From: Candidatus Kuenenia stuttgartensis
Lineage (GTDB): Bacteria; Planctomycetota; GCA-002687715; CAIWVZ01
NCBI GenBank assembly: GCA_945860915.1
Contig: CAMARR010000001.1
Location: forward strand, 1 to 64,000
DNA length: 64,000 bases
Direction: 5' to 3'
Part shown: positions 44,464 to 60,631 of the stretch, in pieces
How positions within the stretch are numbered: position 1 is the stretch's first letter
Layout of the letters: the number at the start of each line of letters is the position of its first letter
Program-made: the position numbers and the translations under genes
The notes under the pieces: generated by a model
Database searches by the model: none
Told to the model about the DNA's origin: nothing
The model's input: the letters and a program-made list of their open reading frames with translations, nothing else

Positions 44464-45803
44464 GGGTCTTGATCGTTGTTCACCAGCTTCCTCCGCGGCA
44501 CCTTGCGGGAACAGAGATCTACTCACTGCGGCTGGCGCACGCGCTAAAAGACCTCGGACACACAGTGGCGCTTGCTTGTTCCGATGATTCGGGGTCGACT
44601 TCGACGGGGCGGATCTCAATGGGCGTGCTTGAGTCTGTGCCTGTCTATTGGATAGGGGTGGATCGGGTGGCCTCGTCATGTCGGGAGTCAGTTTTCCCTC
44701 CGAACACACGGGGCTCTCTTGCGCGTGTTGCATCGCAATTTGCACCTGACATTATTCACATTCAGCACTTGCGTTGGCTCGGGCTTCACGCGTTGGAAGG
44801 CATCAGCGGGATCCGATTGGTCGGCACATTGCATGACCACTGGGCTCTATGCGCACGCGATGGTCAACTCCTGACTCGAGATGGCGTACCCTGCGAGGGG
44901 CCAGATCCCTCGCGCTGCGCTGCTTGTCTTGTGGGATATCAATTCGGTTTAAGTCCACTGGAGGCGCGTGTGCGCCGAGTTCTTGGAAGGGTTGGAATCA
45001 GTCATTCAGGCGCCATCGGACGAGGGCTTCGCCGACTCGGCTTGTGGCGGCGCGGCACGCTGCAAGCACAACGTGGCCCTGAGTCAATCGATTTGGAATC
45101 GCGCGACGCGGCGTTTTTGGACTACTCGAGACGTGTAGATCGGTGGATTGCGCCGTCAGAGCATGTCGCAGCTTCACACAGGGCTTTTGGTTTTGACGCG
45201 ACAAAGATAGTTGTGGTGCCCCACGGAGTAGACGGCGACGCCGGCGCGAATCATGTCCCTCGAGAGGGTGGGCCGCTTCGTGTTGCTTACCTCGGCACCG
45301 TTGCACCCCAGAAGGGTGTTCACGTGCTCATCGAGGCTGCAAGGCGATTGCCACCAGATCTGATCCGTCTTGCCGTTCATGGCCGCATGGATCTTCGACC
45401 GGAGTACGCGTCGAGCCTCGTCGCGGGCGGCCTTCCGCGTGACGTGACGCTTCACGGCACCTTCGCGCCAGGTGATGCCGCTTCGATCCTTCGCCATGCC
45501 GACGTTGTTGTGGTCCCGTCCATCTGGCCCGAAAACCACCCGCTAGCCGTCGCTGAAGCTCTGGCTGCCCGAGTGCCCGTGGTTGCGAGCAATCTGGGCG
45601 GAATCCCTGAACTTATCGTAGACGGCTGCAACGGGCGTCTGGTCCCTCCCAACGACCCCGGGGCGCTTGCTGACGTACTTCACGAGCTGGCGAAGGACAC
45701 GGCCCATTTGTTGCGTCTTAAGGCGGGAATCATTTCGCCCATGAGTTTCAAAGACCATGCCAAGCGGGTGGTCTTGGCGTACGATATGGGTGAGGAACCC
45801 TGA
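44460..45803 (+). CDS. GT4 glycosyltransferase
   Basis: The true start is GTG 44460 (RVLIVVHQLPPRHLAGTE), overlapping the previous stop as GTGA; the 25 upstream track residues are a shadow. The 447-residue GT-B protein has IIHIQHLRWLG, TLHDHWALC followed by the C-x13-C-x7-C-x2-C group, VAYLGTVAPQKGVHVL, HGRMDL and PSIWPENHPLAVAEALAARVPVV. The (W/P)EN(x)PL motif and sequence around it match the C-terminal GT4 domain of the 1406-residue protein. It probably acts in chain assembly. Confidence 0.9.
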   Translation: MRVLIVVHQLPPRHLAGTEIYSLRLAHALKDLGHTVALACSDDSGSTSTGRISMGVLESVPVYWIGVDRVASSCRESVFPPNTRGSLARVASQFAPDIIHIQHLRWLGLHALEGISGIRLVGTLHDHWALCARDGQLLTRDGVPCEGPDPSRCAACLVGYQFGLSPLEARVRRVLGRVGISHSGAIGRGLRRLGLWRRGTLQAQRGPESIDLESRDAAFLDYSRRVDRWIAPSEHVAASHRAFGFDATKIVVVPHGVDGDAGANHVPREGGPLRVAYLGTVAPQKGVHVLIEAARRLPPDLIRLAVHGRMDLRPEYASSLVAGGLPRDVTLHGTFAPGDAASILRHADVVVVPSIWPENHPLAVAEALAARVPVVASNLGGIPELIVDGCNGRLVPPNDPGALADVLHELAKDTAHLLRLKAGIISPMSFKDHAKRVVLAYDMGEEP

Positions 45804-45804
45804 C

Positions 45805-47187
45805 ATGTCCGAAGCTAGCCTTTACGACCCATCTCGATACACGCCTGAGCAGATTGCTGCGTACAAGGCGGATAACGAACGTCGTGTCCGGGATGCAGCA
45901 CGGAAAGGCGATGCGTTTGTCGACGGATTGCCTCTCAAGGTTACTCTCGAGCTCACGGCCGACTGCAATTTGTATTGCCGCATGTGCGAGTTTCCAGTTC
46001 CCCGTGAACAGGGACGTGGCCGCTACGACCTTCACATGCCCGTCGAGACATTTCGCATGCTAGCGCCCCAGGTGTTTCCGCACGCGCGGATCGTCAATCT
46101 GACTGTTGTCGGGGAACCCTTGATGGTTCCGTACCTCGACGAGGTCCTCGACGAGTGCGCGAAGTGGCAGACCAGATTGGAACTTATTTCCAACGTCGTG
46201 TTGCTCGATGCAGCGATGTTGCAAAAAGTCGGACCGCACCTTGGTTGCCTCATCGTGTCATTCGACGGCGGAACTCGCCGAACGTTTAATCGGATTCGAG
46301 TGGGCTCAGATTTTGAACAAGTAACGCGCAACATGCTTCGCTTTGCTCGGTGGAGAGAAACGCTCTCTCCTGAACGTCGTCCCGGATTCCACCTCGCAGT
46401 GACGATGATGAAGGAGAACGCTCACGAGCTTCCGACCATTGTTCGAATCGCGAAGCTTTTAGGTGCCGACTTGGTTTCGGCGGCTTGGATGATTGCTTTC
46501 AACGACAAGCTCGCCAACTCGTCGCTTCTGCGGAATCGACCCCTCGCTAATCGCGCCTTGCGAGAGGCTCGTCGCGTGGCGGCAGAGCTTGGGGTGAAGA
46601 CGAATTTCCCGGTTGACTTCCCGGACGTTTCAGAAGCAGAGGTCGATGCAGTCCCGTTTGTCGAACCGCAGCTTCCCGACGGCGCACTCCCTCACCTCAA
46701 CGCGGCGTTGGCGGGCGGTCCGATCGACGCAGCAGCGTCTCTATCCGTGGTTGATGGGGATGTGCTCATTCCGCTGAGCGAAGTTGGCGGTCTGTCCACC
46801 GACGAGCCTCTTCCTACCGGCGACTCGGCAGATGCACGTCGTGTGCGCAATATGGCGTTTGCGGTCGCGCCTGCGGAGCCCCCGACTCCCGACCCAGGTC
46901 CTGACGGAAAACCACGGAATACCTGCAAGTTCCTCTGGAATGAACTATTCGTAAACGTATCTGGGGACGTCGCACCGTGTTGCATCCAGGGGCGGCCGGT
47001 GGTCGGAAGTACGCAGGAAACGAACCTGTCCGAGATCTGGAACAACGAACCCATGAAGGAAATGCGTCAGCGACTTCTCGATGGGGATCCGATTCCCTGT
47101 TGCAAGGACTGCAATTACAATACGCAGTTAGGTCAGGGCGCGTATCGGGAGGATACTTACTTCATCGATCTCAACCGAAAAGTTTGA
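45805..47187 (+). CDS. Radical SAM/SPASM-domain protein
   Basis: The start MSEASLYDPSRYTPEQ at 45805 has GAGGA upstream and lies 1 nt past the previous stop. The 460-residue protein has the radical SAM cluster CNLYCRMC (C54, C58, C61), NLTVVGEPLM, ISNVVLLD and VSFDGGTRRTFNRIR. The C-terminal SPASM region holds many cysteines (CKFLWNELFVNVSGDVAPCC, then PCCKDCNY) for auxiliary Fe-S clusters. Between them lies an unusual linker of about 90 residues rich in Pro/Asp/Ala. Relatives modify peptides or oxidise sugars (for example aminoglycoside epimerases and dehydrogenases). In this setting sugar epimerisation or dehydrogenation of the glycan is plausible. Confidence 0.85.
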   Translation: MSEASLYDPSRYTPEQIAAYKADNERRVRDAARKGDAFVDGLPLKVTLELTADCNLYCRMCEFPVPREQGRGRYDLHMPVETFRMLAPQVFPHARIVNLTVVGEPLMVPYLDEVLDECAKWQTRLELISNVVLLDAAMLQKVGPHLGCLIVSFDGGTRRTFNRIRVGSDFEQVTRNMLRFARWRETLSPERRPGFHLAVTMMKENAHELPTIVRIAKLLGADLVSAAWMIAFNDKLANSSLLRNRPLANRALREARRVAAELGVKTNFPVDFPDVSEAEVDAVPFVEPQLPDGALPHLNAALAGGPIDAAASLSVVDGDVLIPLSEVGGLSTDEPLPTGDSADARRVRNMAFAVAPAEPPTPDPGPDGKPRNTCKFLWNELFVNVSGDVAPCCIQGRPVVGSTQETNLSEIWNNEPMKEMRQRLLDGDPIPCCKDCNYNTQLGQGAYREDTYFIDLNRKV

Positions 47188-47214: not shown

Positions 47215-50200
47215 GTGGGGAAGAGGGCTCGGATTAAAGTGCTCCATGTGGTGCACGGGTTCCCGCCGGAATGCCGTGGAGGCACAGAGTCCCTCGTGAA
47301 GACGGTTGCGGACGCACAGTGCGCACGTGGCGATGACATTGCGGTGCTTTACGGGACCCTCGAGGTCGGCGATGCACCGGTTTCCAAAGTGGACAACTCT
47401 GGCCCATTGACCCTCTACCGTCTGATCAAGGGTGGGTTCGACATCGACCGCTGGGATAAGTCCGATGACCTTGCCGCTGCCGCCGAGATCGACAGAATTC
47501 TCGAGTCCTTTGCACCGTCGGTTGTTCACGTCCATCAGTGGATTCGGCTGTCGCGATTCCTAGTTCGAGTAGCCCGATCTCGCGGGATTCCAGTTGTTCT
47601 GACCCTGCACGACGCAACGGCGACGTGTCCCACCGCATTTCGTCTCAGGTGTGGGTCGCTTTGCGATCGCGTTCCATCGGGCGCATCATGCTCAGGGTGC
47701 GCTCCGACGCCCCCGATGATGCGAGACCAGGAACTGGGTAAGGCGCTGGACCGTTATGCGTCCGACCTCCGACAGGAGGTATCTGCCGCGAATGTCGTGG
47801 TTGTTCCAACTCAGGCACATGCGACGTTTCTTTCTTCGTGGCTCCCCGTCGAGGTCCGGCCGATAGTCATTCCACACCCGCCTTTGAAGATTAAGCCTAG
47901 TTCTGCGGTAGCCCGGTCGCCCCGGTCCGAGGGTCCGCTTCGCGTCGTTTCCTTTGGATCGTTGAGCGACATCAAGGGCACGCCACTCCTCTACGAGGCG
48001 CTGCGGCTGCTGTCGTCTGCCGATCGCGCGGCTCTTCGCCTTACGGTGAAGGGCGAGGCAATCAACAGTGATGTCCGTGCCCGTCTCGATGCTCTCAAGC
48101 AGGGCATGCCCATTGAGGAAACCGGACCATATCGCCCCGACGAACTTGACGGTTCGCAATTCGATCTGGCGGTACTCCCGTCGTTCGCGTCTGAGTCGTG
48201 GAGTTTTGCGCTTGATGAGGCATGGGCCATCGGGCTTCCGGTTGTCGTCCCATCTCGGGGCGCACTCGGCGAACGTGTGGGAACCGCGGGGTTCACCTTC
48301 GACCCCGAAAACGCGAACGCTCTTGCGGGTGTGCTTTCCAGCCTTATTGCGCAGAGATCATTGATTCTGACAGCACGCGAGGCTATTCCCGCGCCCACGT
48401 CTCTCGTTTCGCATCTCGAAGAACTCGACCGAGCCTATTCGGCCGCGTCGAGATCACGGCAGACGTATGCTCCGCTCTGGCGCGATGCCGCAAGCGACAT
48501 GGCCAATCGCTTCCGGGATGCCGAACAAGAGTTACTTAATGCGCGGGGCCGATTGCAGGGCGAATCGGATCGATTCAACGATCTCACAACTGCGTTCCAC
48601 AGATCAGAGATCTCGGTCACAACCCTGCGCGGTGAGGTGGGGCGACTTGAAGGCATCGTTGCGGACTATCGGACGTCCGTGGCCAATCACCAAGGCGAGA
48701 ATGCAAGTCTCAAATCCGAGATACGCAGCCTTCAAGCCGAGCGCGCAGAACTCGCCGACGTCGTCCGCGAGCGTGACCGTAATCTCAGAGAGTTCGAGCG
48801 CTCCGTTGTTGAGTATCGCGAACTCCTTGCGCGGAAAGAGTCAGATCTATCACAGTTTCGAGTTTCGATTTCAGAGCATCAGCGCGTTCTCGAGGCGAAG
48901 AACGACCATCTCGAAGATCTACGCGGACAGGCGATGGACGCATCTACCGCCCTTCGTGAAGAGATTGCGCGCGCTACCGCGGATCACAACCGAACGAAGG
49001 AGCAGCTGGAGCAGCGTTCCGAGGAGCTTGCCCGTGTCTCTGCGGCCGGAGTAATCGCCGCGCGGGAGTTCCAGTCTCGATATGAAGAACTCTCCGTAAG
49101 ACTGAATCAATCGGAGGCGACCGCCTCGGCCTTGACACAAGAGTTGCTTTCGCTGCGCGAGTCGTCGGCAAGAGAAGCGCAACGGGTTGCTGCTCGGGCA
49201 ATGGAGCTTGTCTGTGAAGTGAGCGCCGTCAGAGAGAGACTTGACGCACTGACGACCGTTGCGATGCGCCACGTTGAGTCAATCGAGCATTTGCAAGGGC
49301 GTATTGAGGCCTCAGAGCGACGCGAGGCGTCCTTGTCGAAGAAGGTGACTGAACTTGCGTTGCGAGTGACCCAGTCGGACGGCGAGATTCAGATCTACGA
49401 GATCCGTGTCCGAGAGCTCGCTCGGGCTCGGCAGCTTTCCGAGGAGGTGGCATTGCATCTCAGTTTCGACCTCGGCCTTCTCCGCCGAGAACTCTCGCGT
49501 CAGGAATTAGCACAAGGTGCGCTTCGGCGGGACTTGGAGAGTTCGAGGACCGTCGCGGTCGAACTCACTTCGCGAATGTTACGCGCCGAGCAACGCTGGA
49601 TGCAGTCGGAAAGCGCTCATCGCGCCGCGTTGGCTCGCTCGGCCGAACTCGCGTCTGATGCGACGGAATTGAGCCGTCGCGTGCGTGCGATGAGCACGGG
49701 AATTACCCGAGAACTAGCGGCTTCCGAGAGTTGGCGTCGCCGTGCGATGGATGCGGAAAAGGCAGCGGCTACAAGAGCTGCATACGCACAAAAAATTAAG
49801 GAGTCCCAAGAAGACCTAGCCGTGAAGCTCGCAGAAGTTCAACTTGAACTGGGACTCAAGCTCGACGAAGAGGCGCGATTGACGGCACTCCTTGGGTCTC
49901 TCGCTCCTAGCAGAGCGAGCCTGGCAGATGCGGTTGCACAGCTACGCGCAGAGTCGGATGGTGTTCGTGCACAGCTCTCGGGAGTGTTCTTGGCCCTATC
50001 TGGAGCGAAGGCGGATCTGCCGGGCGCGCGGCGCTTGCTCGGTGTAACTGATAAGCGCTTGCGGGTGTTGATAGTTGTGCATGACTTTCTCCCATATCAC
50101 GCCGCGGGTTCCGAGATCTACACGTACCAACTCGCCAAAGCACTTTCGACTCATTGCGATGTGCATCTGCTGTTCTGCGAGAATCGACCGGATCGACCGC

Positions 50201-51435
50201 AGTATGAGACCAGAAACGGCGTATACGATGGGATTCCATTCACCGAGGTTGTTCACCATGACGCCTTTCCAACGTTCGGACTCACCTACGAGGATCCCGC
50301 GATGGAGCGGGTCTTTGATGGCGTTGTTGATAGTTTCCAACCGAACGTTGTTCACATCCAACACCTCAAGTTTTGGGGCGTCGGTATCGTCGAACGCGCG
50401 CGAGCAAAGAACTGCCCCGTATTCTTCACCCTGCATGAGTACATGCTGATCTGTCCGCGAGACGGCCAAATGCTTCGCCCGAGCGGCGAGCGATGTGACG
50501 TGCCTGTGGTTTCGACCTGCGCCTCATGCATCGAAGGCAGGGCACTGGAACAGGGTTGGATAGGTCGTCGAGCCATCGCAGCCGGCCGTTTTCTGTCCGA
50601 GCGACTCCCGGATGGTGCGCGCCATCTGGGAGCTCGAGTCGCTAGGCGAGTCGCCGTGCGGAATGCCTCTGCAGGGACGCAGATAGCGCGAGAACAGGCT
50701 ATCTCCACTCGACTTTCGCGCACAGCGGACGCACTCCGACATGTAGAGACATTCTTGGCCCCAAGTCAATTCTTGCGAGATCGATTTGTTGCGTCAGGGA
50801 TGATCCCCCCCGATCGCATTGAATGGTCGAGATACGGACAAGAGGTCTCGCGTTTCCCACATGTCGCGAAGGTTCCTTCCGCTCGATTGCGGGTGGGATA
50901 CCTTGGCACAGTCTCGGCCTATAAGGGACTGGGCGTCTTTGTTGAGGCGCTTGAATCACTGTCGTCGTTCCCCATCGAAGGGCGCATTCACGGTGCCCTT
51001 GAGATCTTCCCCGACTATGTGTCTTATCTGCGGGAAACCGTAAGGAACCCCAACATCCATCTGATGGGGAGATTCGATAACAAGGATGTCGCGCGCCTGT
51101 TGGCAGAGATCGATGTCCTGGTAGTTCCGAGCCTCTGGTGGGAGAACGCGCCGCTTACTATTCATGAGGCCTTTCTCGCTCGTGTGCCGGTTGTCTGCTC
51201 AGATATTGGCGGAATGAGGGAGCTTGTGACACATGGCAAGAATGGCCTTCACTTTGTCGTCGGCGACGCATCAGACCTAGCTCGCAAGTTGCTTTCGCTC
51301 GCAACCGATCAAGAGTTTCTCAAAAAATTGACTCCGGATCCTGCGGACATTCGCGACATTCGTGAGGATGCGGTCTCAATGATTGCTCGATATCATCGGG
51401 CGCTTGTTCGTCGTAAGCAGCACGGTGCTTCATGA
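47215..51435 (+). CDS. Giant GT4-coiled coil-GT4 glycosyltransferase
   Basis: This is a single 1406-residue ORF from GTG 47215 with a GGGGGA ribosome-binding site. Residues 1-410 form a GT4 enzyme (VLHVVHGFPPECRGGTE, LTLHDATATC, SDIKGTPLLYEAL, ESWSFALDEAWAIGLPV). Residues about 415-920 are charged heptad-rich helix with almost no Pro (RFRDAEQELLNARGRL, LKSEIRSLQAERAEL), a long coiled coil. Residues 947-1406 form a second complete GT4 (RVLIVVHDFLPYHAAGSE, TLHEYMLIC, LGTVSAYKGLGVF, WWENAPLTIHEAFLARVPVV). Both active-site sets look intact. It may be a two-headed polymerase with a molecular-ruler rod. ATGA links it to the next GT4-GT2 gene. Confidence 0.93.
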   Translation: MGKRARIKVLHVVHGFPPECRGGTESLVKTVADAQCARGDDIAVLYGTLEVGDAPVSKVDNSGPLTLYRLIKGGFDIDRWDKSDDLAAAAEIDRILESFAPSVVHVHQWIRLSRFLVRVARSRGIPVVLTLHDATATCPTAFRLRCGSLCDRVPSGASCSGCAPTPPMMRDQELGKALDRYASDLRQEVSAANVVVVPTQAHATFLSSWLPVEVRPIVIPHPPLKIKPSSAVARSPRSEGPLRVVSFGSLSDIKGTPLLYEALRLLSSADRAALRLTVKGEAINSDVRARLDALKQGMPIEETGPYRPDELDGSQFDLAVLPSFASESWSFALDEAWAIGLPVVVPSRGALGERVGTAGFTFDPENANALAGVLSSLIAQRSLILTAREAIPAPTSLVSHLEELDRAYSAASRSRQTYAPLWRDAASDMANRFRDAEQELLNARGRLQGESDRFNDLTTAFHRSEISVTTLRGEVGRLEGIVADYRTSVANHQGENASLKSEIRSLQAERAELADVVRERDRNLREFERSVVEYRELLARKESDLSQFRVSISEHQRVLEAKNDHLEDLRGQAMDASTALREEIARATADHNRTKEQLEQRSEELARVSAAGVIAAREFQSRYEELSVRLNQSEATASALTQELLSLRESSAREAQRVAARAMELVCEVSAVRERLDALTTVAMRHVESIEHLQGRIEASERREASLSKKVTELALRVTQSDGEIQIYEIRVRELARARQLSEEVALHLSFDLGLLRRELSRQELAQGALRRDLESSRTVAVELTSRMLRAEQRWMQSESAHRAALARSAELASDATELSRRVRAMSTGITRELAASESWRRRAMDAEKAAATRAAYAQKIKESQEDLAVKLAEVQLELGLKLDEEARLTALLGSLAPSRASLADAVAQLRAESDGVRAQLSGVFLALSGAKADLPGARRLLGVTDKRLRVLIVVHDFLPYHAAGSEIYTYQLAKALSTHCDVHLLFCENRPDRPQYETRNGVYDGIPFTEVVHHDAFPTFGLTYEDPAMERVFDGVVDSFQPNVVHIQHLKFWGVGIVERARAKNCPVFFTLHEYMLICPRDGQMLRPSGERCDVPVVSTCASCIEGRALEQGWIGRRAIAAGRFLSERLPDGARHLGARVARRVAVRNASAGTQIAREQAISTRLSRTADALRHVETFLAPSQFLRDRFVASGMIPPDRIEWSRYGQEVSRFPHVAKVPSARLRVGYLGTVSAYKGLGVFVEALESLSSFPIEGRIHGALEIFPDYVSYLRETVRNPNIHLMGRFDNKDVARLLAEIDVLVVPSLWWENAPLTIHEAFLARVPVVCSDIGGMRELVTHGKNGLHFVVGDASDLARKLLSLATDQEFLKKLTPDPADIRDIREDAVSMIARYHRALVRRKQHGAS

Positions 51436-53696
51436 AGATTCTCATGGTGACAACCGGGCTTCCGCCAGGTTCGCGTGGTGGCACAGAGACCCATGTCGTC
51501 TCCCTTGCGTCGCATCTCGCGCGCCAAGGCCACGATGTCGTTCTTTTTTGCCGTGAAGGCGGATCCTCGCGCGCTCCGTTCTCCGTTCGTCGAGATACTC
51601 TTCATGGGCTTTCGACGCATCGAATCGCGTATGGCTTTCATGATGCGTCGACTTTCGACAAGATCCACCGGAATGTCGAAATCGAGATGGCGTTTCGATC
51701 CGTGGTGGTGGAGGTTAAGCCGGACCTTGTTCATGTCCATCACTTAAGTTGCCTTTCAACGGGCATTCTTGACCTCGTGGCGAGTCTTGACATTCCACTT
51801 GTCATGACTCTTCATGACTACTGGCTGGCATGTCCACGGGGCCAGCGCATCATGAAAGACCTGACCGTGTGTCAGGACCTTGATCGTTCGCGGTGTGCGC
51901 CATGCCTGAAGGAACTTTGGCCGCATTTTGAGATTACGCCCGGCGACCTCGAGGCACTTGATCTTGAGTTGCTCGCGCGTGTCAATCGTTGTGATCTTCT
52001 TCTTGCACCGTCAGAGTTTCATCGAGCGCGCATGACTGAGTGGGGCGTTGACCCCAATAGACTTCACGTTGAGGCCCACGGGCTTGATTCTGGTGGATTT
52101 GAGATCGCACAGCGGCTTCGCGAAGGCATTAGAACCGTGGGCTATATTGGCAGCCTGATTCCTTCGAAGGGAGTTCATGTTCTCATTGAAGCCTGGAATC
52201 AAGTTGGGCGCGAAGACGTTGAGTTAGTGATCCATGGAGAGGCTCCTAACTTTCATGGAGACTCGGGCTATCTCGAACGTCTCAACGCGTCAGTTCGCAG
52301 TGGGTTGAAAGTGCGATTCGGGGGCCCTTTTGATGTGGCCGGCGTTCCCCGACTGCTGCGGGGGATCGACTTGCTCGTGGTCCCACCGGTGTGGTGGGAG
52401 TCGTTCTGCCTGACCGCACGTGAAGGGTTTCTAGCTGGGGTTCCAGTGGTGGCGTCACGACATGGCGCACTTGTGGAGGCATTCGATGACGGCAAAGGCG
52501 GGGTGTTCTTCGAGCCGGGGAACGCATCCGATCTCGCAGCTAAGCTTCGCGGCCTAATCGACGCCCCGAAGGCACATGCAGCGCTTGCCGCTTCGGTTCC
52601 ATCCGTGCGATCAATGGACGACTGCGCTCGCGCGACTGCTGCACGATATGCGTCCGCGATCGCTGCGCGAAGGCACGCGCGAGCGGCCTCCGGGGAGTCC
52701 TCGATTGGGTTCGTGTCGGGAGATTCTTCGGTCCAACCGTATGTGACCGTGTTCTTGCCAACGTGGAACGGTCTTCCCGAGATTGACGCCGTCCTTGCTC
52801 AGATTACGAGACAGGTGACATCGTTTCCCTATGAGGTGTTGATCATCGACTCCGGATCAACTGACGGTACGCTGGACGTGATTCGCAAGTATCCCGGCAT
52901 TCGACTTCTGACTATTCCCAACGACGAATTCAATCATGGGCTCACTCGAAATCGTGGTGTCGCAGAGTCTCGTGGCGACATTGTCGCCTTGCTGACGCAG
53001 GACGCGGAACCCCTCAACGAGCACTGGTTGGCGCAACTCGTCTCTAACTTCCAAGATCCTAAGGTCGCAGGTGTCTACTGCACGCAGAGACCTCGACCTG
53101 ATTGCAATCCGTTCGCCCGTGACCGATTGAAGGATTGGACGGCGGAGTCGGGTGATCCGGTCGTCCAAGGTCCTATTTCTGCAGGGGAATTCGCAGCGAT
53201 GCGTCCGTGGGATCGTTACCTAGTTTCACGATTCGATGATGTGGCATCGTGCGTGCGCAAGTCCGCAATGATCGAGGTCCCCTATGCGCGTCGCCAGTTT
53301 GGCGAGGACGTTGAATGGGGCAGCCGAGCCGTCGTGGCCGGTTGGAAGATTGTTAACGATCCGAAGTCGGTAGTGATTCACTCCCACGACAGCCCGGTCC
53401 TTTACGAGTTTAAACGTGTGTACTTGGACCATCAAAATCTCTTTCAACTGTTTGGTTTGCACACTCTCCCTAGGATCTCTGACGTTCCGCTGTGCTCAGT
53501 TCGCTATTTCCTCCACTTGCTTCCTGTCGTCTGGCGGGATGATCGAAGCGTCGGATTCCGACTTTGGTGGACACTCAAGCTTCCGCTTTACGCATTTACT
53601 CAGAATCTCGCACAGTGGCTTGGCGCTAAGTCTGTTCAATGGAGAAAAGAGGGTAAACATTCTTGGGTGGACGCTCTTATGAAAAAGTCGGTTTGA
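51432..53696 (+). CDS. GT4-GT2 bifunctional glycosyltransferase
   Basis: In this 754-residue protein residues 1-415 are GT4: MKILMVTTGLPPGSRGGTET, MTLHDYWLAC with the Cys4 group, VGYIGSLIPSKGVHVL and WWESFCLTAREGFLAGVPVV. Residues 435-754 are GT2 of rhamnosyltransferase type: VTVFLPTWNGLPEI, IIDSGSTDGT, NHGLTRNRGVAESRGDIVALLTQDAEP (TQDAEP as the metal site) and YARRQFGEDVEWGSRAVVAGW. The C-terminus has hydrophobic patches. Covalent linking suggests consecutive sugar additions. Start and stop abut the neighbours (ATGA; 1 nt), so it is part of the chain 47215-59237. Confidence 0.92.
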   Translation: MKILMVTTGLPPGSRGGTETHVVSLASHLARQGHDVVLFCREGGSSRAPFSVRRDTLHGLSTHRIAYGFHDASTFDKIHRNVEIEMAFRSVVVEVKPDLVHVHHLSCLSTGILDLVASLDIPLVMTLHDYWLACPRGQRIMKDLTVCQDLDRSRCAPCLKELWPHFEITPGDLEALDLELLARVNRCDLLLAPSEFHRARMTEWGVDPNRLHVEAHGLDSGGFEIAQRLREGIRTVGYIGSLIPSKGVHVLIEAWNQVGREDVELVIHGEAPNFHGDSGYLERLNASVRSGLKVRFGGPFDVAGVPRLLRGIDLLVVPPVWWESFCLTAREGFLAGVPVVASRHGALVEAFDDGKGGVFFEPGNASDLAAKLRGLIDAPKAHAALAASVPSVRSMDDCARATAARYASAIAARRHARAASGESSIGFVSGDSSVQPYVTVFLPTWNGLPEIDAVLAQITRQVTSFPYEVLIIDSGSTDGTLDVIRKYPGIRLLTIPNDEFNHGLTRNRGVAESRGDIVALLTQDAEPLNEHWLAQLVSNFQDPKVAGVYCTQRPRPDCNPFARDRLKDWTAESGDPVVQGPISAGEFAAMRPWDRYLVSRFDDVASCVRKSAMIEVPYARRQFGEDVEWGSRAVVAGWKIVNDPKSVVIHSHDSPVLYEFKRVYLDHQNLFQLFGLHTLPRISDVPLCSVRYFLHLLPVVWRDDRSVGFRLWWTLKLPLYAFTQNLAQWLGAKSVQWRKEGKHSWVDALMKKSV

Positions 53697-53697
53697 C

Positions 53698-54966
53698 ATG
53701 CGGGTCCTCTTGGTCGGGCATGTGCGCGAGGGATCTGAGGGAGGTGGGGTTGGGCGTCACCTTGAGGCACTAGCAGCGGCGCTGGCTTCAGCGTCTCACG
53801 AGGTGTCGATATTCACACGTGTCTCTGAACCTCGCTTTCCCGACTTGTGCTGGTTTGAAGAATCGCCCGGTAGATTTCGATGGAATCACCTTGGGAAAGC
53901 AGGGACTTCCTTTCGCGCTCGAACAGTGTTTCCACCTGCAGAAGTTGCATTTCGACACGTCGTTGATCGTGTTCAACCAGACCTAATTGCGTTCCATCAT
54001 TTGTCTTGGTTGTCAGTGGGATTGGTGGGCATCGCAGCGAGTTGCGGGGTGAGGACCGTCATTACTCTCCATGATTTCATCTCGGATTGTCCTCGCGGTC
54101 AGCGTTATCGGCCTGATGATGTGGCTTGCGTCGAAGTTGATCGCGCGCGTTGCGCCACTTGCGTGACACCTCGTTTCGTTGAGGGGTTTCGCGGCGAGAA
54201 TAGGATTCAGTCGGCGCTGTCGATGCTGTTGCCTTCTACTGACACGAAGTTGTTTTCTGAGCGTGACGCTCATTGGACAGCGACTCTCGCTGCAGCAGAT
54301 GCAATCGTTGTCCCGAGTGAAAGCACGCGTCGACTACTCGAAGCGACGTTTCCTGTCGCTATGGCCCGCGCACGAGTTTTGCCGCCGTTCGTTGAGGTCG
54401 TTGGCGAGCCGCCTCCTCAACGCTTGCGGGGGACGGCGTCTGAGTACGCTGTGGGCTACTTCGGATCAGTGATTCCATCGAAAGGTGTTGACATCGCAGC
54501 GATGGCTGCGGTTCGGTCTGCGGGGCGGGTTCGACTTCACGTTTTTGGTGGAGATGTCAACGAGTTTCAGGCCGGGATTTCGCTCCGGGCCGGCAATGCT
54601 GTCGTCTGGCACGGGAAATTTGACGAGGGGATGCTTCCTCATTTGATGTCCGAACTCGATGCCGTGGTGATTCCGTCCCGATGGCCGGAGACCTTCAATA
54701 TTGTCTTGCGGGAGACCGTGATCTTAGGGCGCGCGGTTATCGCCAGTCGCGTCGGAGCGCTTGTAGAGGCAATTGATCGGGGTTGGGCTGTCGGTGTCGA
54801 GCCGGGCGACCCCAATGCGTTGCTACAAGCGTGTCTCGATGTGATTGAGAGCGGACCTCCTAGTGTTTCGCTGCGTGGGGAGGCAATGAACGAATTCGCG
54901 GAGTCAAGGCAGAACCATCTCCGGCTCTACGAGCAGGTGGCTTCAAGTGGTATGACGGTGGCATGA
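53698..54966 (+). CDS. GT4 glycosyltransferase
   Basis: This 422-residue GT-B enzyme starts MRVLLVGHVREGSEGGGVGRH, with a glycine-rich donor loop longer than in its neighbours. LIAFHHLSWLSVG, ITLHDFISDC and the C-x12-C-x7-C-x2-C group follow, then VGYFGSVIPSKGVDI and PSRWPETFNIVLRETVILGRAVI (catalytic E-x7-E-like motif). It lies 1 nt after the GT4-GT2 gene and overlaps the phosphodiesterase gene by ATGA. It is the last glycosyltransferase of the core block. Confidence 0.9.
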   Translation: MRVLLVGHVREGSEGGGVGRHLEALAAALASASHEVSIFTRVSEPRFPDLCWFEESPGRFRWNHLGKAGTSFRARTVFPPAEVAFRHVVDRVQPDLIAFHHLSWLSVGLVGIAASCGVRTVITLHDFISDCPRGQRYRPDDVACVEVDRARCATCVTPRFVEGFRGENRIQSALSMLLPSTDTKLFSERDAHWTATLAAADAIVVPSESTRRLLEATFPVAMARARVLPPFVEVVGEPPPQRLRGTASEYAVGYFGSVIPSKGVDIAAMAAVRSAGRVRLHVFGGDVNEFQAGISLRAGNAVVWHGKFDEGMLPHLMSELDAVVIPSRWPETFNIVLRETVILGRAVIASRVGALVEAIDRGWAVGVEPGDPNALLQACLDVIESGPPSVSLRGEAMNEFAESRQNHLRLYEQVASSGMTVA

Positions 54967-57065
54967 TTCGACCCTCGCTGATAGTCGCTGTGATGACGTT
55001 GACCTTGCCGATGTGGAGCCAGGGTAGGGCTATCGTGATTGGTGTCGACGGATTGGACCCGGCATGGTGTTCTCGTTGGATGGCGGACGGAAGCCTTCCT
55101 GAACTAAAGGCGCTTGCTGACTCTGGACGACTTTCACCACTTCGACCAACAAATCCCGCTCAGTCTCCCGTGTCATGGTCGTCGATGGTGACGGGCCGTG
55201 ATCCCGGCGAGACCGGCATCAATGACTTCCTTCGCCGAGACTCACGCGGCGGCGAGATAACTGCGGAGCTGTCCCTCGTCGACCGTGTGCAGATTCCGTT
55301 GCGGGCGCCTGCTGTCGGGCTCATGACGGCAATCGTACTCGTCGTCACCGGCTTCGTGGCCTGGAGACGACTCCGGCGTGGCGCGGTCGCTCAGAAGGCT
55401 CCGCTACTGATGACCTTGGGTGGCATTGCGATTTGCATTGCTGCGGTGGGAAGCTGGTTGCCGTCTTACGTCGAAGTCCCCCGCAATGCGCGTGGAGGCG
55501 AGGCGATCTGGGAGCGTGCCGATCGGGCAGGACTAGGTTCAGTCAACCTGTTTGCTCCGATGTCTTTTCCTGCTCCACAGCTCGATCATGGTTGCGTTCT
55601 CTGCGGACTCGGGGTGCCCGATGTCATGGGCACCCCAGGAACTGCGACCGTCTATCGCGAGGAGCCGATTCCGGGAGGGCGTCTACTCACGCCGACCGGG
55701 TGTCGCGTTGAGTCCGTGCGCGAGGAAAACGGGGCACTCGTTGGGCCGAGAGTCGAAGGCCCTAAGCGCTCCGACGGTACACGTCCTACGCTTCCAATCA
55801 GATTTGTACCTGATCGCGCGCGTCGCACGGTTTCATTGACTATTGGAGATGGACTCGCAATTGAGATACCGGAGGGCGGTTGGACTCCCTGGGTGGACAC
55901 ACCACTCAGCCTAGGACCTCTCGGTGTCCTAAGCGCAATTTCGAGATGGCGTCTAGTTGAAGGTGGTGCGCGGACCGTGATCTATCAAGAGCCATCGTGC
56001 TTCGATCCTAGGTCTCCAATGATGGCTGCACCGGTTGTTTCGCCATCGAACTTCGGAACGCAACTGCTCGCGGACGGACGCGCCTTCGGCACATTGGGAT
56101 GGGCGTGCGCGACAAACCCTCTTCAGGACGAGATCATCGACGAGTCGACGTTCATCACTCAGGTTGAGGCTATCGACGCAGAGCGAGAAGAAATGGTGAT
56201 GCGAAGCTTGAGTCGCAAGGGCTGGAAGTTGTTCTTTTGCGTTCTGTCGACGCCCGATCGAGTTCAGCACGTCTTCTACCGCGATCACGACCCTCTGCAC
56301 CCACGGCACGACGCATCGGCGATTGCTCGACGTGGCGATCCCATGAAGGATTCCTACCGACGCCTAGACCGCCTGGTCGGGCGCGTGCGGCGCGAAATTG
56401 CTTCGAAAGACGACCTCGTCATGGTGGTCTCCGATCACGGCGTCGCTCCGTTTCGCTGGCAGGTCAACCTCAATCGTTGGTTGGCGGAGGAGGGGTACCT
56501 GGTCGGATCCGATTCGGGTTCGATTCGCAGCATCGAAGAGTCGATCGGTGGTGCAGCGCTATTCCCGGGAGTGGATTGGTCTCAAACGAGGGCCTACTCC
56601 ATGGGCCTCGGAAAAATCTACATCAACGTGGCCGGGCGTGAGCCGCGAGGTTCCGTGCCAATCGGCGAGCGACGACGGGTTTTAGAGGAGATCAAGGTCA
56701 AATTGCTTTCGCTCACTCATAGTGGACGGAGGGTGGTCCGCTCGGCCGAGATCCGAGAGGATCTCTACGTTGGCGATCGCATAGAGGCATCTGCCGATCT
56801 CATTGTGGGGTTCGAGTCGGGATATCGGATCTCATGGCAGGCGACCCTAGGGGCATTCGATGAGGCGGTCGTGACCCCAAATCGACGACTCTGGAGCGGA
56901 GACCATTGTTCGGTGGATCCTGGTGTCGTTCCCGGGGTGTTAATTGCATCACGCCCGTTTGATGACGAATCGATTTCGGTCGTCGATGTCTTCCCTACGA
57001 TTGAAGCTTGGCTTGCGCTTCAGAAGTCACCCGGACTTCGCGGGAAGGCACTGACGTGGAGGTAG
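54963..57065 (+). CDS. Alkaline-phosphatase-fold phosphodiesterase with membrane hairpin insert
   Basis: This 700-residue protein begins with a signal-like segment (MIRPSLIVAVMTLTLPMWSQ). The catalytic core has VIGVDGLDPAW (metal Asp), the nucleophile region PAQSPVSWSSMVTG (Ser68), RVQHVFYRDHD, VVSDHGVAPF and WSGDHCSVDPGVVPGVLIAS, as in type I phosphodiesterase/nucleotide pyrophosphatases. Two hydrophobic helices (about 117-135 and 147-168) interrupt the catalytic domain right after the nucleophile block. Substrates in the family include phosphodiesters of lipids and nucleotides. Here it overlaps GT and prenol-kinase-like genes and may cleave or transfer a phospho-linked headgroup. The residue assignments are mine by eye. 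Confidence 0.82.
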   Translation: MIRPSLIVAVMTLTLPMWSQGRAIVIGVDGLDPAWCSRWMADGSLPELKALADSGRLSPLRPTNPAQSPVSWSSMVTGRDPGETGINDFLRRDSRGGEITAELSLVDRVQIPLRAPAVGLMTAIVLVVTGFVAWRRLRRGAVAQKAPLLMTLGGIAICIAAVGSWLPSYVEVPRNARGGEAIWERADRAGLGSVNLFAPMSFPAPQLDHGCVLCGLGVPDVMGTPGTATVYREEPIPGGRLLTPTGCRVESVREENGALVGPRVEGPKRSDGTRPTLPIRFVPDRARRTVSLTIGDGLAIEIPEGGWTPWVDTPLSLGPLGVLSAISRWRLVEGGARTVIYQEPSCFDPRSPMMAAPVVSPSNFGTQLLADGRAFGTLGWACATNPLQDEIIDESTFITQVEAIDAEREEMVMRSLSRKGWKLFFCVLSTPDRVQHVFYRDHDPLHPRHDASAIARRGDPMKDSYRRLDRLVGRVRREIASKDDLVMVVSDHGVAPFRWQVNLNRWLAEEGYLVGSDSGSIRSIEESIGGAALFPGVDWSQTRAYSMGLGKIYINVAGREPRGSVPIGERRRVLEEIKVKLLSLTHSGRRVVRSAEIREDLYVGDRIEASADLIVGFESGYRISWQATLGAFDEAVVTPNRRLWSGDHCSVDPGVVPGVLIASRPFDDESISVVDVFPTIEAWLALQKSPGLRGKALTWR

Positions 57066-57595
57066 CGGGCCGTGCAGAATGGCTCCGTCGTTGCGTACAC
57101 ATTGCGGTCGGCATACCTGCATGGATCGTCACGCGCGAGACGGCGATGACGTGGGCATACGCATGTTTTGCAGGGGCGTTTTTCAATACGTTGTTGCTGT
57201 CGCGGGTTCCGGTTGTCGGCGACGTGACTCGAGTTGTCCGCGGAACCCGTGGAACTATCTTGTATCCTTTGGTCATAGGCGTCCTTCTTGTTCTGTTTCG
57301 GGAGCGACCACAGTTGGCGTGTGTCGGCTGGCTAGCGCTCGCACTCGGCGATGGATCAACACCGTTCTTTGCAAGAGTTCGGTCTTGTGCGTGGCCCACC
57401 AACCCAAAGAAGAAGCTCATACCCTCGCTCCTCGGTGGACTCGTGGCGGGCGCCGGGGCGTCTTTTGTGATTGACGCCAAAATCGCTTTTCCCGCCTGTC
57501 TTGTTGCCGCACTCGCCGATGCGATCCCGTGGTGTGACGACAATGTGTCGTGGCCGGTGTTGGCGGCTACCGTCGCATGGGGGATGAGTACGTGA
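57056..57595 (+). CDS. Dolichol/phytol kinase-like (VTE5-type) membrane protein
   Basis: The preferred start is GTG 57056, which has GGGAAGG upstream and overlaps the previous gene by 10 nt; it gives 179 residues. There are about five hydrophobic helices. The block LALALGDGSTPFFARVRS followed by WPTNPKKKLIPSLLGGLVAGAGA matches the GDxxAxxxGR...KTxxGSxxG core of CTP-dependent polyprenol/phytol kinases (SEC59/VTE5-like family), although several positions are changed. These enzymes phosphorylate prenyl alcohols. The gene is followed directly by a VTE6-like gene and UbiA, which supports a prenyl-phosphate pathway. Confidence 0.7.
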   Translation: MEVAGRAEWLRRCVHIAVGIPAWIVTRETAMTWAYACFAGAFFNTLLLSRVPVVGDVTRVVRGTRGTILYPLVIGVLLVLFRERPQLACVGWLALALGDGSTPFFARVRSCAWPTNPKKKLIPSLLGGLVAGAGASFVIDAKIAFPACLVAALADAIPWCDDNVSWPVLAATVAWGMST

Positions 57596-58305
57596 CGCGT
57601 GACCCTTGGCTCAACGATGTGGCGGTGTCCGCGGTCACCGGTCTCGTATTGACGTTGCCCGTGGTCGCCGCGCGTGTCGCTACGCCATCGGGCGTTCTCG
57701 CTGGGGCGTTTTTCACTGCGTGGATGAGCTATCAGGGCGGCGCTCCGACTCTGGTGGCATTCGCCTGCCTTGTGGTTTTCGGAAGTCTGTCGTCGCGCGC
57801 AGGTCGGGCGCGCAAGGAAGTTCTTGGGGTCGCACAGGAGGGAGGTGGGCGCCGCGCGTTCAAGCACGTGCTGGCGAATGCCGGACCTGCTGCTACCGCA
57901 CTCTTTTTCGGGTTGCTGTTTCCGCAATTCCACGACGCCTCGGTGGCGGCCGCCTGCGGTGCCCTCGCGGGAACACTTTCAGACACAGTATCTGGTGAAA
58001 TTGGGATGCTCGTCTCGAGTCCACCCAGACTTCTTTTGATTGGTCCGATTGTCCGCCGGGGTACCGACGGAGGGATGACCTACGTTGGCGTGATGGCCGG
58101 AGTCGTTACTGCTGCTTTGGTTGCACTCGCGGTCACCCCGTGGAACCTGCGATGGGTCTCAGTCTTCGCCGCAGGCGTCATGGGGACACTCTCAGATAGC
58201 GTCTTGGGTGCCACGATTGAGCGTCGGCGCTTGATCGGCAATGAGGGCGTGAATTTCGTGTCTGGAGCCTTAGCTGCAGCGACCGCCTGGAGTCTTGAGT
58301 CATGA
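57592..58305 (+). CDS. DUF92/VTE6-like polytopic membrane protein
   Basis: I chose GTG 57592 (TRDPWLNDVAVSA), which makes a GTGA overlap and has GGGGGATGAG upstream; ATG 57577 is possible. The 237-residue protein has about six hydrophobic helices and the DUF92 blocks RRAFKHVLANAGPAA, ACGALAGTLSDTVSGEIGML, RRGTDGGMTYVGVMAG and GVMGTLSDSVLGATIERR followed by NEGVNFVSGAL. Plant VTE6 and the archaeal homologues belong to this family; VTE6 turns phytyl phosphate into phytyl diphosphate. With the VTE5-like gene upstream and UbiA downstream, a two-step prenol activation is likely. Confidence 0.82.
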   Translation: MTRDPWLNDVAVSAVTGLVLTLPVVAARVATPSGVLAGAFFTAWMSYQGGAPTLVAFACLVVFGSLSSRAGRARKEVLGVAQEGGGRRAFKHVLANAGPAATALFFGLLFPQFHDASVAAACGALAGTLSDTVSGEIGMLVSSPPRLLLIGPIVRRGTDGGMTYVGVMAGVVTAALVALAVTPWNLRWVSVFAAGVMGTLSDSVLGATIERRRLIGNEGVNFVSGALAAATAWSLES

Positions 58306-59237
58306 CTCGTGTTAGGGCATTGCTTGAGTCTACGCGTCCATTCACCTTGGCACCGCCAGTCCTTGGGATGGTTTCAGGAGGCTTGAGCGCGCTTGGCGCC
58401 GGCCGAAGCCTCGTCAGCGGGTCTTCCTTCGTTACGCATGTCGTATGTGGCGCGGCCATGGCCGGGCTACTCAATGCGGCAAGCAATGTGCTGAATCAGA
58501 TTCACGACATTCATCTAGACGAGATCAACAAACCGGAGCGCCCGATTCCATCAGGGCGTCTATCGCTGTTCGCGGCTCGCGCGTGGGCTTTGTTGCTTTA
58601 TGTAGTCTCTATCGGTCTTGCGTTCCTTCTGACACCAGCTGGATCCCCGGAGGTCGGCGGCATTGTTCTCGTGACCGCGATTCTCACCTGGATCTACTCA
58701 GCGCCTCCAATTCGTGCGCGAAATTCGTGGTGGTTAGGCCCGTTGGTCATCGCCATTCCGCGCGGACTTCTACTGAAAGTCGCGGGGTGGGGAGCGGTGG
58801 CGCCCGTGTTGTCTGATCGAGAGCCTTGGGTGCTTGGATGTGTGTTTTTTGTCTACGTTATTGGAGCGGCTCCCGTCAAGGACTTCGCGGATGTCGAAGG
58901 CGATCGAAGAGGTGGCGCTTCTTCATTGCCAATTAGATTTGGCCCCCGGAGGGCGGCGACGATCGTCGCAGCGTTCCTCGTACTTCCAGGGATCTTGCTG
59001 ATGGCTCTACCTTCGATCCATGTTGGTGGGCGTCCACTTCTTTCTCTTAATCCGCTCTTTGCGGCACTCGCTGGTGCCGTCATTTTTGGACACGGACTTC
59101 GAGTGGGACGAGTTATGGTCTCCGATCCTCTGGCACTTGTCCACGGCGGAGGGCAGGCCGCATGGCGACACATGTACCTTCTGATGATGGAGCTACAGAT
59201 CGCGGCGGCTGCGCTCTACTTTTTCGGTCACCCGTGA
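58302..59237 (+). CDS. UbiA-family prenyltransferase
   Basis: This 311-residue, roughly eight-helix protein overlaps the DUF92 gene by ATGA. It carries both aspartate-rich motifs: NVLNQIHDIHLDEINKPERP (NxxxDxxxD) and KDFADVEGDRRGGASSLPIRFG (DxxxD...R). UbiA enzymes attach a prenyl chain from a prenyl diphosphate to an aromatic ring, chlorophyllide, a glycerol phosphate or a sugar phosphate. The second motif resembles ChlG/digeranylgeranylglyceryl-phosphate synthase-like members. Next to VTE5- and VTE6-like genes it would use salvaged prenyl diphosphate. The acceptor is unknown. Confidence 0.9.
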   Translation: MTRVRALLESTRPFTLAPPVLGMVSGGLSALGAGRSLVSGSSFVTHVVCGAAMAGLLNAASNVLNQIHDIHLDEINKPERPIPSGRLSLFAARAWALLLYVVSIGLAFLLTPAGSPEVGGIVLVTAILTWIYSAPPIRARNSWWLGPLVIAIPRGLLLKVAGWGAVAPVLSDREPWVLGCVFFVYVIGAAPVKDFADVEGDRRGGASSLPIRFGPRRAATIVAAFLVLPGILLMALPSIHVGGRPLLSLNPLFAALAGAVIFGHGLRVGRVMVSDPLALVHGGGQAAWRHMYLLMMELQIAAAALYFFGHP

Positions 59238-60409
59238 CGTGCGGTGATCGTAGACCATGATCCGCAGCGGTAGGCGCCTTGCGATGCAACTGCAAATGTC
59301 CAGCGAAGTACGCCACCGTGGGGTAGGAGCTCGCCGTCCTCCCAGCGGAGCTCTCTTGCTCCCGTTGACGATCGCCACGATGGGCGCCACTTTACGGTGG
59401 TGAGATGTTGGTCGGTGGATAGGTCTAGAATGTCGCGATCAAGTGCCCGCGTAACTAAGCGGCTCCGGCCCATCGAATCTGTCGCGATGGCGATGAAGAA
59501 CAGCTGCGATTTCAGGAGCTCCGACTGAAACACAGCGCTGAACACTGGCTCGTCGTCTGGGACTCGAAGTGATATTTCGCACAAGTTCGGGTGGGGGTTC
59601 CGAATTTGATTAGTCGATTCCACGTTGCCGAGAGGGCGAATAACTGGCGCCGTGTTCTTTAGAAATCCGTCCTCTAAGATTGGGCCGAGTCCGGCGAGCG
59701 TCATCTTCCCTTCGTGGGGAATCGTTGCAGGGTCAGAGTTGGCGAACCCTGATGTGGCGTTGACGAGGGCCTCGATTTCATACTCGACACCGTCATGCTC
59801 TGGAACGAGGAAGACGCAGTGAGTCGGTGACTGTCGCACAAGCGCAAGAACGCTCGTGAGGTTGTTCGCGCGAGCCGTCCTGCCCGATAGCGTTGATTGA
59901 ACGCGCGCATAACTGGCGGGAATCCAAAGACCTCCAAGCAAGACAAGGATGATTCCGGTGACGCACGGACCACGTCGGATGGGAATTGAGCGCCCAACTA
60001 ATACGATTCCGGCTACCGTTGCGATTGAGACAACAGCGCCGAGCATGGAAGGCGTTCCATCGGCCTCGGGGGTCGGTGCATAGCGAAGGTGGTTGGAGAA
60101 GGCAAACGTCGATGGGTGCAGGGCCCAAGTGACGATCGCCCCAACTGAGAGATCTACGCGCTCTGTCAGGAGCCCGATAGCCGTTCCGAGGATCATCCCG
60201 ACCATCGTCACGGCGACGATTCCTGGTACATGCGCGAGGGATGCCGAAAGTGGGTCTTCTGGCGACCAGATGCCGATTGCTGCAAGAGCCGCGGCTTCCT
60301 CAGGCAAGGGCGCGAGTCCACTCGAGAGGATTGCATACGCAGTCGCCATGACGGTCGACGTTGCGGTGCTCGCAACGAGCACTCGGCGTGAAGTTGCACT
60401 GATCCCCAT
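59228..60409 (-). CDS. Unknown multi-pass membrane protein
   Basis: I start it at MGISATSRRVLVASTATST (60409), preceded by AGGGAGTGG; the 60 extra residues in the track contain no family feature. The 393-residue protein has about six hydrophobic segments up to residue 190, then a soluble, probably periplasmic C-terminal half (SPTHCVFLVPEHDGVEYEIEALV, SLRVPDDEPVFSAVF, WRPSWRSSTGARELRWEDGEL). The two-part plan (helices plus exported half) resembles that of several other proteins here, but no family motif was recognised. It converges by 10 nt with UbiA. Confidence 0.55.
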   Translation of the reverse strand: MGISATSRRVLVASTATSTVMATAYAILSSGLAPLPEEAAALAAIGIWSPEDPLSASLAHVPGIVAVTMVGMILGTAIGLLTERVDLSVGAIVTWALHPSTFAFSNHLRYAPTPEADGTPSMLGAVVSIATVAGIVLVGRSIPIRRGPCVTGIILVLLGGLWIPASYARVQSTLSGRTARANNLTSVLALVRQSPTHCVFLVPEHDGVEYEIEALVNATSGFANSDPATIPHEGKMTLAGLGPILEDGFLKNTAPVIRPLGNVESTNQIRNPHPNLCEISLRVPDDEPVFSAVFQSELLKSQLFFIAIATDSMGRSRLVTRALDRDILDLSTDQHLTTVKWRPSWRSSTGARELRWEDGELLPHGGVLRWTFAVASQGAYRCGSWSTITARHG

Positions 60410-60631
60410 CCACTCCCTATCGGTTTCTCGTGTCTTCTCAATGGAAACACACTCGATGGGGCACGTTTTATGAGGCCGGAGCCGCCACGATGAGAGTTTG
60501 CGCGATGGTCCGATCCCGCCGCTGAGCCCGAAGACCTGCTTTAAATCCCCATGTTCGTGGGTGTTTACGGGGCGGGCTGCGAGGGTCACGCGAGGTTCGT
60601 ATCATCGGGGGCGCCATAAGGAATTCAACCC

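Follow-up and report, generated by a model that had tools for sequence, protein, structure and literature searches.

A planctomycete MAG (2.37 Mb in 23 contigs, 87% complete) carries a phosphodiesterase gene (PDE) and three genes resembling those for prenol activation and prenyl transfer directly downstream of a series of glycosyltransferase genes. This raises the question of what such prenyl genes do in this location and whether their product is used with the glycan, as the original prediction held on the basis of the overlap between the PDE and the GT4 gene before it.

Gene organisation and its conservation in the order

The ORF list and Pfam matches place four chained genes at positions 54963–59237 of the window, which is the whole stretch of 64,000 nucleotides that was analysed (Table 1). 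The predicted ORFs are all present and the overlaps between them are real. An ATGA at 54963 joins the upstream GT4 gene to the PDE, the VTE5-like gene begins at a GTG (57056) and shares 10 nt with the end of the PDE gene, a GTGA at 57592 joins VTE5 to DUF92, and an ATGA at 58302 joins DUF92 to UbiA. Chained by these start/stop overlaps, the PDE-VTE5-DUF92-UbiA set and the upstream glycosyltransferases are probably one translationally coupled operon. While the ORFs given originally stand, the starts of the longest frames (TTG 57008 for the VTE5-like gene and GTG 57550 for DUF92) are probably too early, and GTG 57056 and GTG 57592 are preferred. The GT4-coil-GT4 protein encoded at 47215–51435 is 1406 aa long, its long coiled-coil-like middle being flanked by two terminal GT4 domains.

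Table 1. Features of the window around the prenyl genes, with the evidence for each.
Feature	Position	Strand	Evidence
Radical SAM/SPASM protein, head of the order-level block	45757..47187	+	PF13186 2.9e-13; kept in 7 relatives
GT4 - long coiled-coil-like middle - GT4 protein	47215..51435	+	Conserved in order
GT4-GT2 two-domain glycosyltransferase	51432..53696	+	PF13439 + PF00535
GT4 glycosyltransferase, directly upstream of PDE	53698..54966	+	PF13439 2e-18
PDE, type I phosphodiesterase/alkaline-phosphatase-superfamily	54963..57065	+	PF01663 6.5e-32
VTE5-like (phytol/farnesol/dolichol-kinase-like) membrane protein	57056..57595	+	Phylum homologues, motifs, relatives' PF01148, AlphaFold
DUF92 (VTE6/COG1836-like) integral membrane protein, putative prenyl-phosphate kinase	57592..58305	+	PF01940 3.1e-35
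UbiA-superfamily prenyltransferase	58302..59237	+	PF01040 7e-35

The nearest named relative is a Planctomycetota bacterium (L048), with 72% UbiA identity. Profile searches on six frames were used to follow the locus through the window's order. In all 10 genomes of the order with a VTE5-like gene, from three families, this gene is immediately preceded by the GT4-GT2 gene and the PDE, and UbiA follows DUF92 in nine of them. Where the contig extends far enough, this block is mostly headed by the radical SAM/SPASM and GT4-coil-GT4 genes. The GT4 gene adjoining the PDE is confined to the window's genus; it is present in L025 and absent from the other families of the order. The predicted GT4 contact holds as an ATGA overlap in the window, while in the order's other families the glycosyltransferase at this place is GT4-GT2. 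The recurrence of the PDE-VTE5-DUF92-UbiA order in genomes of the same order, together with the co-occurrence of the last three families across 294 genomes of the phylum, indicates that the grouping is not due to chance.

Some variation is seen around UbiA. In HyVt-576 (L032, 11161–12627), one of these nine genomes, a 1.5-kb ORF on the opposite strand lies between DUF92 and UbiA. An SDR follows UbiA in four genomes of the order (L027, L029, L030, and L031). At the corresponding place the window has a 453-aa ORF on the minus strand (59228–60589), convergent with UbiA, for which there were no Pfam or NCBIfam matches.

Assignment of the four proteins

The UbiA protein matches PF01040 with 121 bits, against a cut-off of 34.2, and has intact Asp-rich motifs (N65xxxD69xxxD73 and D197xxxD201) that are invariant. 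It scores far below every equivalog cut-off, with the chlorophyll-synthase models outscoring the others. The match to the ChlG model has an E-value of 7.9e-39, but its 133.6 bits fall well under the cut-off of 313; by this score, and with no Photo_RC match in the genome, the protein does not qualify as chlorophyll synthase ChlG. The NCBIfam GGGP geranylgeranyltransferase model matches at 1.5e-26, and the UbiA profile finds chlorophyll a synthase (8.5e-29) and DGGGP synthase (7.4e-25) in the PDB. Judged from these comparisons, the protein is nearest the chlorophyll synthase/DGGGP synthase branch.

The two archaeal-type matches raise the possibility that UbiA is a DGGGP synthase acting on geranylgeranylglyceryl phosphate in the synthesis of archaeal-type ether lipids, with VTE5 and DUF92 recycling geranylgeraniol. 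DGGGPS homologues and archaeal-type lipids have been described in bacteria of the FCB group (PMC7852524). This function is improbable, however, given the higher scores of the chlorophyll-synthase models, the distance of all scores from the equivalog cut-offs, and the annotated neighbour families, among which no GGGP synthase or G1P dehydrogenase is recognised.

Likewise, the position of UbiA near ChlG and homogentisate phytyltransferase could point to synthesis of a prenyl-quinone or chromanol (tocopherol/phylloquinone-like) from the phytol of salvaged algal chlorophyll, since in plants VTE5 and VTE6 supply the synthesis of tocopherol and vitamin K1 (PMC9782597). In the 87% complete genome, the Photo_RC profile found no reaction centre and no geranylgeranyl reductase scored over the cut-off; PF14249 found no tocopherol cyclase, in a search that also missed a cyanobacterial control and is of uncertain sensitivity. 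A photosynthetic or tocopherol context, for which a genome-wide check had been proposed, is therefore rejected, which bears out the original view of the setting as heterotroph-like. The genome has three other UbiA genes, for a heme O synthase, an MqnP/UbiA-like protein, and an EboC-like protein, and the MqnP/UbiA-type enzyme probably serves menaquinone. In addition, the cassette is found in MAGs whose names suggest groundwater or other sources with no obvious phytol supply. A role in quinone or chromanol synthesis is, on these grounds, unlikely. In the same genome, the UbiA-family gene at G000:C1:175979-176506 (L004) is nearest EboC/SCO3242, and an ebo-like operon may be present.

The DUF92 protein matches PF01940 with 122.2 bits, against a cut-off of 27.5, and TIGR00297 at 3.4e-28, under the cut-off of that model. 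It has an invariant DT..E.G motif. COG1836 was predicted in 2011 to act in phytol-phosphate metabolism, through plant-prokaryote comparison (PMC3223725). The AlphaFold model (pLDDT 92.1) is all-helical and has no significant match among solved folds, the best plausible neighbour being CdsA, a weak match (Foldseek probability 0.72, E 0.2); the family profile found nothing convincing among PDB sequences. As CdsA is the sole fold likeness, a cytidylyltransferase-like role is possible. The reading that follows from this, in which DUF92 and the VTE5-like protein are both CdsA-like enzymes of CDP-lipid metabolism rather than prenol kinases, would also account for weak PF01148 matches among the VTE5-like relatives. 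It is nevertheless very unlikely, as characterised members of both families are kinases (PMC9782597) and the fusion of the two genes and their linkage to UbiA and prenyl-PP synthase fit prenol activation.

Profile searches bear out the original naming of the DUF92 and UbiA proteins. The VTE5-like ORF of the window has no significant match of its own in Pfam or NCBIfam. Among its relatives, PF01148 (CTP_transf_1) is matched by 3 out of 21 (best 4.7e-6) and, in a second set, by 4 out of 46 (best 1.2e-4). R27 and H31 are invariant in 46 sequences of the family, with a middle residue that is R or K, giving RR..H in the window protein. These residues resemble a charged clamp of Arg, Lys, and His (R-K-x-x-H, close to the N-terminus) in the model of PfPolK, the prenol kinase of Plasmodium (PMC10849223). 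The family core GDG...K...DDN is also conserved, and at position 171 the window protein has Asp in place of a near-invariant Glu. The AlphaFold model (pLDDT 92.6) is of an all-helical, multi-helix membrane protein. Foldseek gave no significant match of this model to a solved fold and the family profile found no match among PDB sequences; alignment of the VTE5 and DUF92 profiles with hhalign gave an E-value of 5.8e-4 at a probability of only 29%. The weak PF01148 matches of relatives, the R..H motif, the DUF92 fusions, and the gene context together suggest that the gene is probably prenol-kinase-like, this being the weak link among the four assignments.

The PDE has a signal-like N-terminal segment and an internal hydrophobic hairpin. 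Its metal ligands (D432, H436, D491, H492, and H648) are intact and invariant in 13 relatives. Because most of the relatives also begin with a signal-like segment, the protein probably acts outside the cytoplasm. The PDE is best explained as part of the prenyl cassette rather than of the glycan genes.

Distribution of the trio and its relation to glycan genes

Scanning GTDB genomes with the UbiA profile gave 286 relatives, and 80 named loci among them were retained. Forty-six of the 80 have VTE5, DUF92, and UbiA together as a trio within 8 kb. The trio recurs in Planctomycetota, Acidobacteriota, Glassbacteria, Gemmatimonadales, and Krumholzibacteria, and thus in at least five phylum-level groups. 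VTE5 and DUF92 are in a single ORF in 26 named loci and in the planctomycete families f43, f47, and f50. Fusions of VTE5 and VTE6 may, reportedly, have been recorded in plant-prokaryote comparison work on COG1836. The usual partners of the trio are an HpnA-like NAD-dependent dehydrogenase, a short-chain prenyl-diphosphate synthase, and the PDE. The module-type SDR (HpnA/SdmB/OleD-like), in which S108, Y136, and K140 are invariant, lies no more than 700 bp from the trio in 28 out of 46 loci. There is no clear SDR of this type in the window genome, where the best matches are weaker paralogues (144 bits, compared with 254–352 bits in two relatives). A fuller planctomycete form has the order PDE, prenyl-PP synthase, VTE5, DUF92, UbiA, SDR without a glycosyltransferase (L149, with L156 similar), the synthase in L149 being of the FPP/GGPP type.

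For 36 of the 46 trio loci, the DNA retrieved around the locus, at most 10 kb to either side, has no detectable glycosyltransferase. The 10 with a glycosyltransferase are eight from the window's planctomycete group and two from Krumholzibacteria (L068 and L119). Since the same block is common elsewhere without glycan genes, the overlap with GT4 does not imply a use of the product together with the glycan, contrary to the original prediction, which had itself named such a distribution as grounds for refutation; the planctomycete form lacking glycosyltransferases argues the same way. Coupling to glycan synthesis as a general rule is rejected on the basis of the 80 named loci, the linkage being present only in the window's order and the two Krumholzibacteria loci. 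The latter are an independent link between the trio and envelope-glycan genes. In L119 (1409–13721) the genes for UbiA, AcpS, VTE5, SDR, and DUF92 follow one another next to those for GT9, GT2, and a bacterial sugar transferase, and L068 is similar, with UbiA, VTE5, SDR, and DUF92 beside envelope-glycan genes.

Within the window's order the linkage is conserved, and a prenyl glycolipid there is possible, although not implied. The trio would in this case make a prenylated anchor for the glycan of the adjacent glycosyltransferases, at least in this order. In its favour, the order GT4/GT4-GT2-PDE-VTE5-DUF92-UbiA is kept in 10 genomes of three families, the start/stop overlaps span the boundary between glycan and prenyl genes, and Krumholzibacteria also have the trio near glycan genes. 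Set against these are the 36 trio loci without a glycosyltransferase and the restriction of the touching GT4 to one genus. Furthermore, the acceptors prenylated by characterised UbiA enzymes of this branch are small, and no carrier-dependent glycan step is known to require a C15–C20 diphosphate. An anchor function is therefore rather unlikely. As the set recurs in many phyla, usually without glycan genes, the trio probably forms a portable cassette for isoprenoid lipids instead of belonging to glycan synthesis.

Among 294 genomes of the phylum, VTE5-like homologues are present in 58, DUF92 in 52, the UbiA clade in 70, and all three in 40. Pairwise Fisher tests of the three families in these genomes give p-values of 1e-23 to 1e-33, which overstate the evidence because relatedness is uncorrected; many families are involved nonetheless. 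The pairwise distances of VTE5, DUF92, and UbiA are also correlated (r 0.69–0.87). The UbiA clade occurs without VTE5 in 25 out of 70 genomes. In 13 out of 15 genomes with UbiA and no adjoining VTE5, a VTE5 gene is located elsewhere in the genome. Two genomes without any VTE5 match (G304 and G305; loci L106 and L095) have a prenyl-PP synthase beside UbiA, which, from two cases only, suggests that the same donor can come from either the kinases or the synthase. The fusions in 26 loci, the co-occurrence, and the presence of VTE5 elsewhere support the predicted two-step prenol activation feeding a prenyltransferase.

Other arrangements were seen. In a second recurring one, the UbiA clade is near a short-chain prenyl-diphosphate synthase and/or a radical SAM protein of family NF045502, sometimes with the PDE (L093, L095, L106, L056, and L066; also L057, L097, L107, and L121, where no synthase was seen). 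Seven Acidobacteriota loci (L084, L060, L070, L072, L075, L077, and L094) have DUF92-UbiA with no VTE5 adjoining, and a divergent VTE5-like match was found elsewhere in all six genomes tested. In L084 an LptD-like ORF is directly upstream of DUF92-UbiA. A plasmid search with the fused VTE5-DUF92 protein gave one DUF92 match and nothing more.

Predicted pathway and comparison with known systems

The trio of this non-photosynthetic bacterium is likely to be a cassette for prenol salvage and prenyl transfer. The activities, direction of flow, and chain length that follow, as well as the use of an acceptor, are predictions from the gene families, the intact catalytic motifs of UbiA and the PDE, synteny, fusions, and co-occurrence. 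The VTE5-like protein would phosphorylate a free prenol to the prenyl phosphate, probably with CTP as in plants, and DUF92 would convert this to the prenyl diphosphate. The prenol is probably C15–C20, because the neighbouring synthase is of the FPP/GGPP type. In the inner membrane, UbiA would then attach the prenyl group to an acceptor. In some relatives the short-chain prenyl-diphosphate synthase would make the same donor de novo. The HpnA-like extended SDR beside the trio in most relatives may interconvert prenal and prenol, an FLDH-like part, and the PDE, which appears to be exported, may cleave a prenyl-phospho (glyco)lipid outside, freeing prenyl or head-group material for recycling. The plant precedents are VTE5 and VTE6, CTP-preferring kinases of phytol and phytyl phosphate (PMC9782597) that also take geranylgeraniol and its phosphate, and the NADH-dependent FLDH, which reduces farnesal to farnesol before phosphorylation by FOLK (PMC13415981).

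Each of the protein families is already known. Searches of the literature, with most subscription journals outside their reach, found no work coupling VTE5/DUF92 to UbiA in Acidobacteriota or Planctomycetota and no published description of an SDR-VTE5-VTE6-UbiA-PDE cassette in heterotrophic phyla. A more speculative and doubtful proposal is that of a widespread, undescribed prenol(prenal)-salvage cassette (SDR, VTE5, VTE6, and UbiA, often with PDE and the short prenyl-PP synthase) that makes a new prenylated envelope lipid in non-photosynthetic phyla and has been captured in the window's order as an anchor or modifier of an exported glycan. If many heterotrophic phyla have a clustered, and in some cases fused, VTE5-VTE6-UbiA cassette, genes for the pathway would become available from bacteria, and a UbiA product not yet described would be indicated for Acidobacteriota and Planctomycetota. 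The fused VTE5-DUF92 proteins are single-gene kinases, if correctly assigned, and would be convenient to assay. In Sulfidibacter corallicola, whose genome is complete, there are both the UbiA gene and a 483-aa open frame with a VTE5-like domain, so that the question can be put to the test.

Several known systems share parts of this cassette. DGGGP synthase of archaeal ether-lipid synthesis has the same UbiA fold and is the second-best solved relative of the window UbiA, which nevertheless scores below the equivalog cut-off and has no recognised GGGP synthase among its annotated neighbours. The ebo operon also pairs a UbiA-like protein (EboC) with a PF01663 phosphodiesterase (EboF) (PMC5133447). 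However, the window UbiA is far below the EboC cut-off, the PDE matches no Ebo model, no other ebo gene is recognised beside UbiA, and the described ebo operon is without VTE5/DUF92. The plant farnesol/geranylgeraniol cycle (FLDH, FOLK, and prenyl-P kinase) likewise has an NAD-dependent dehydrogenase and a prenol kinase followed by a second kinase; the bacterial version differs in being a linked cassette that ends in UbiA, and the likeness of the SDR to FLDH would be one of role. Plant and cyanobacterial phytol salvage (VTE5, VTE6, and then a UbiA-type HPT or ChlG) has the same three families in the same logical order, with DUF92/COG1836 corresponding to VTE6 and the window UbiA being nearest the ChlG branch. 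In contrast to that system, the window genome has no reaction centre or tocopherol cyclase match, the VTE5-like protein has diverged and is only about 180 aa long, and the genes are clustered or fused, with the SDR, prenyl-PP synthase, and PDE as partners in the cassette.
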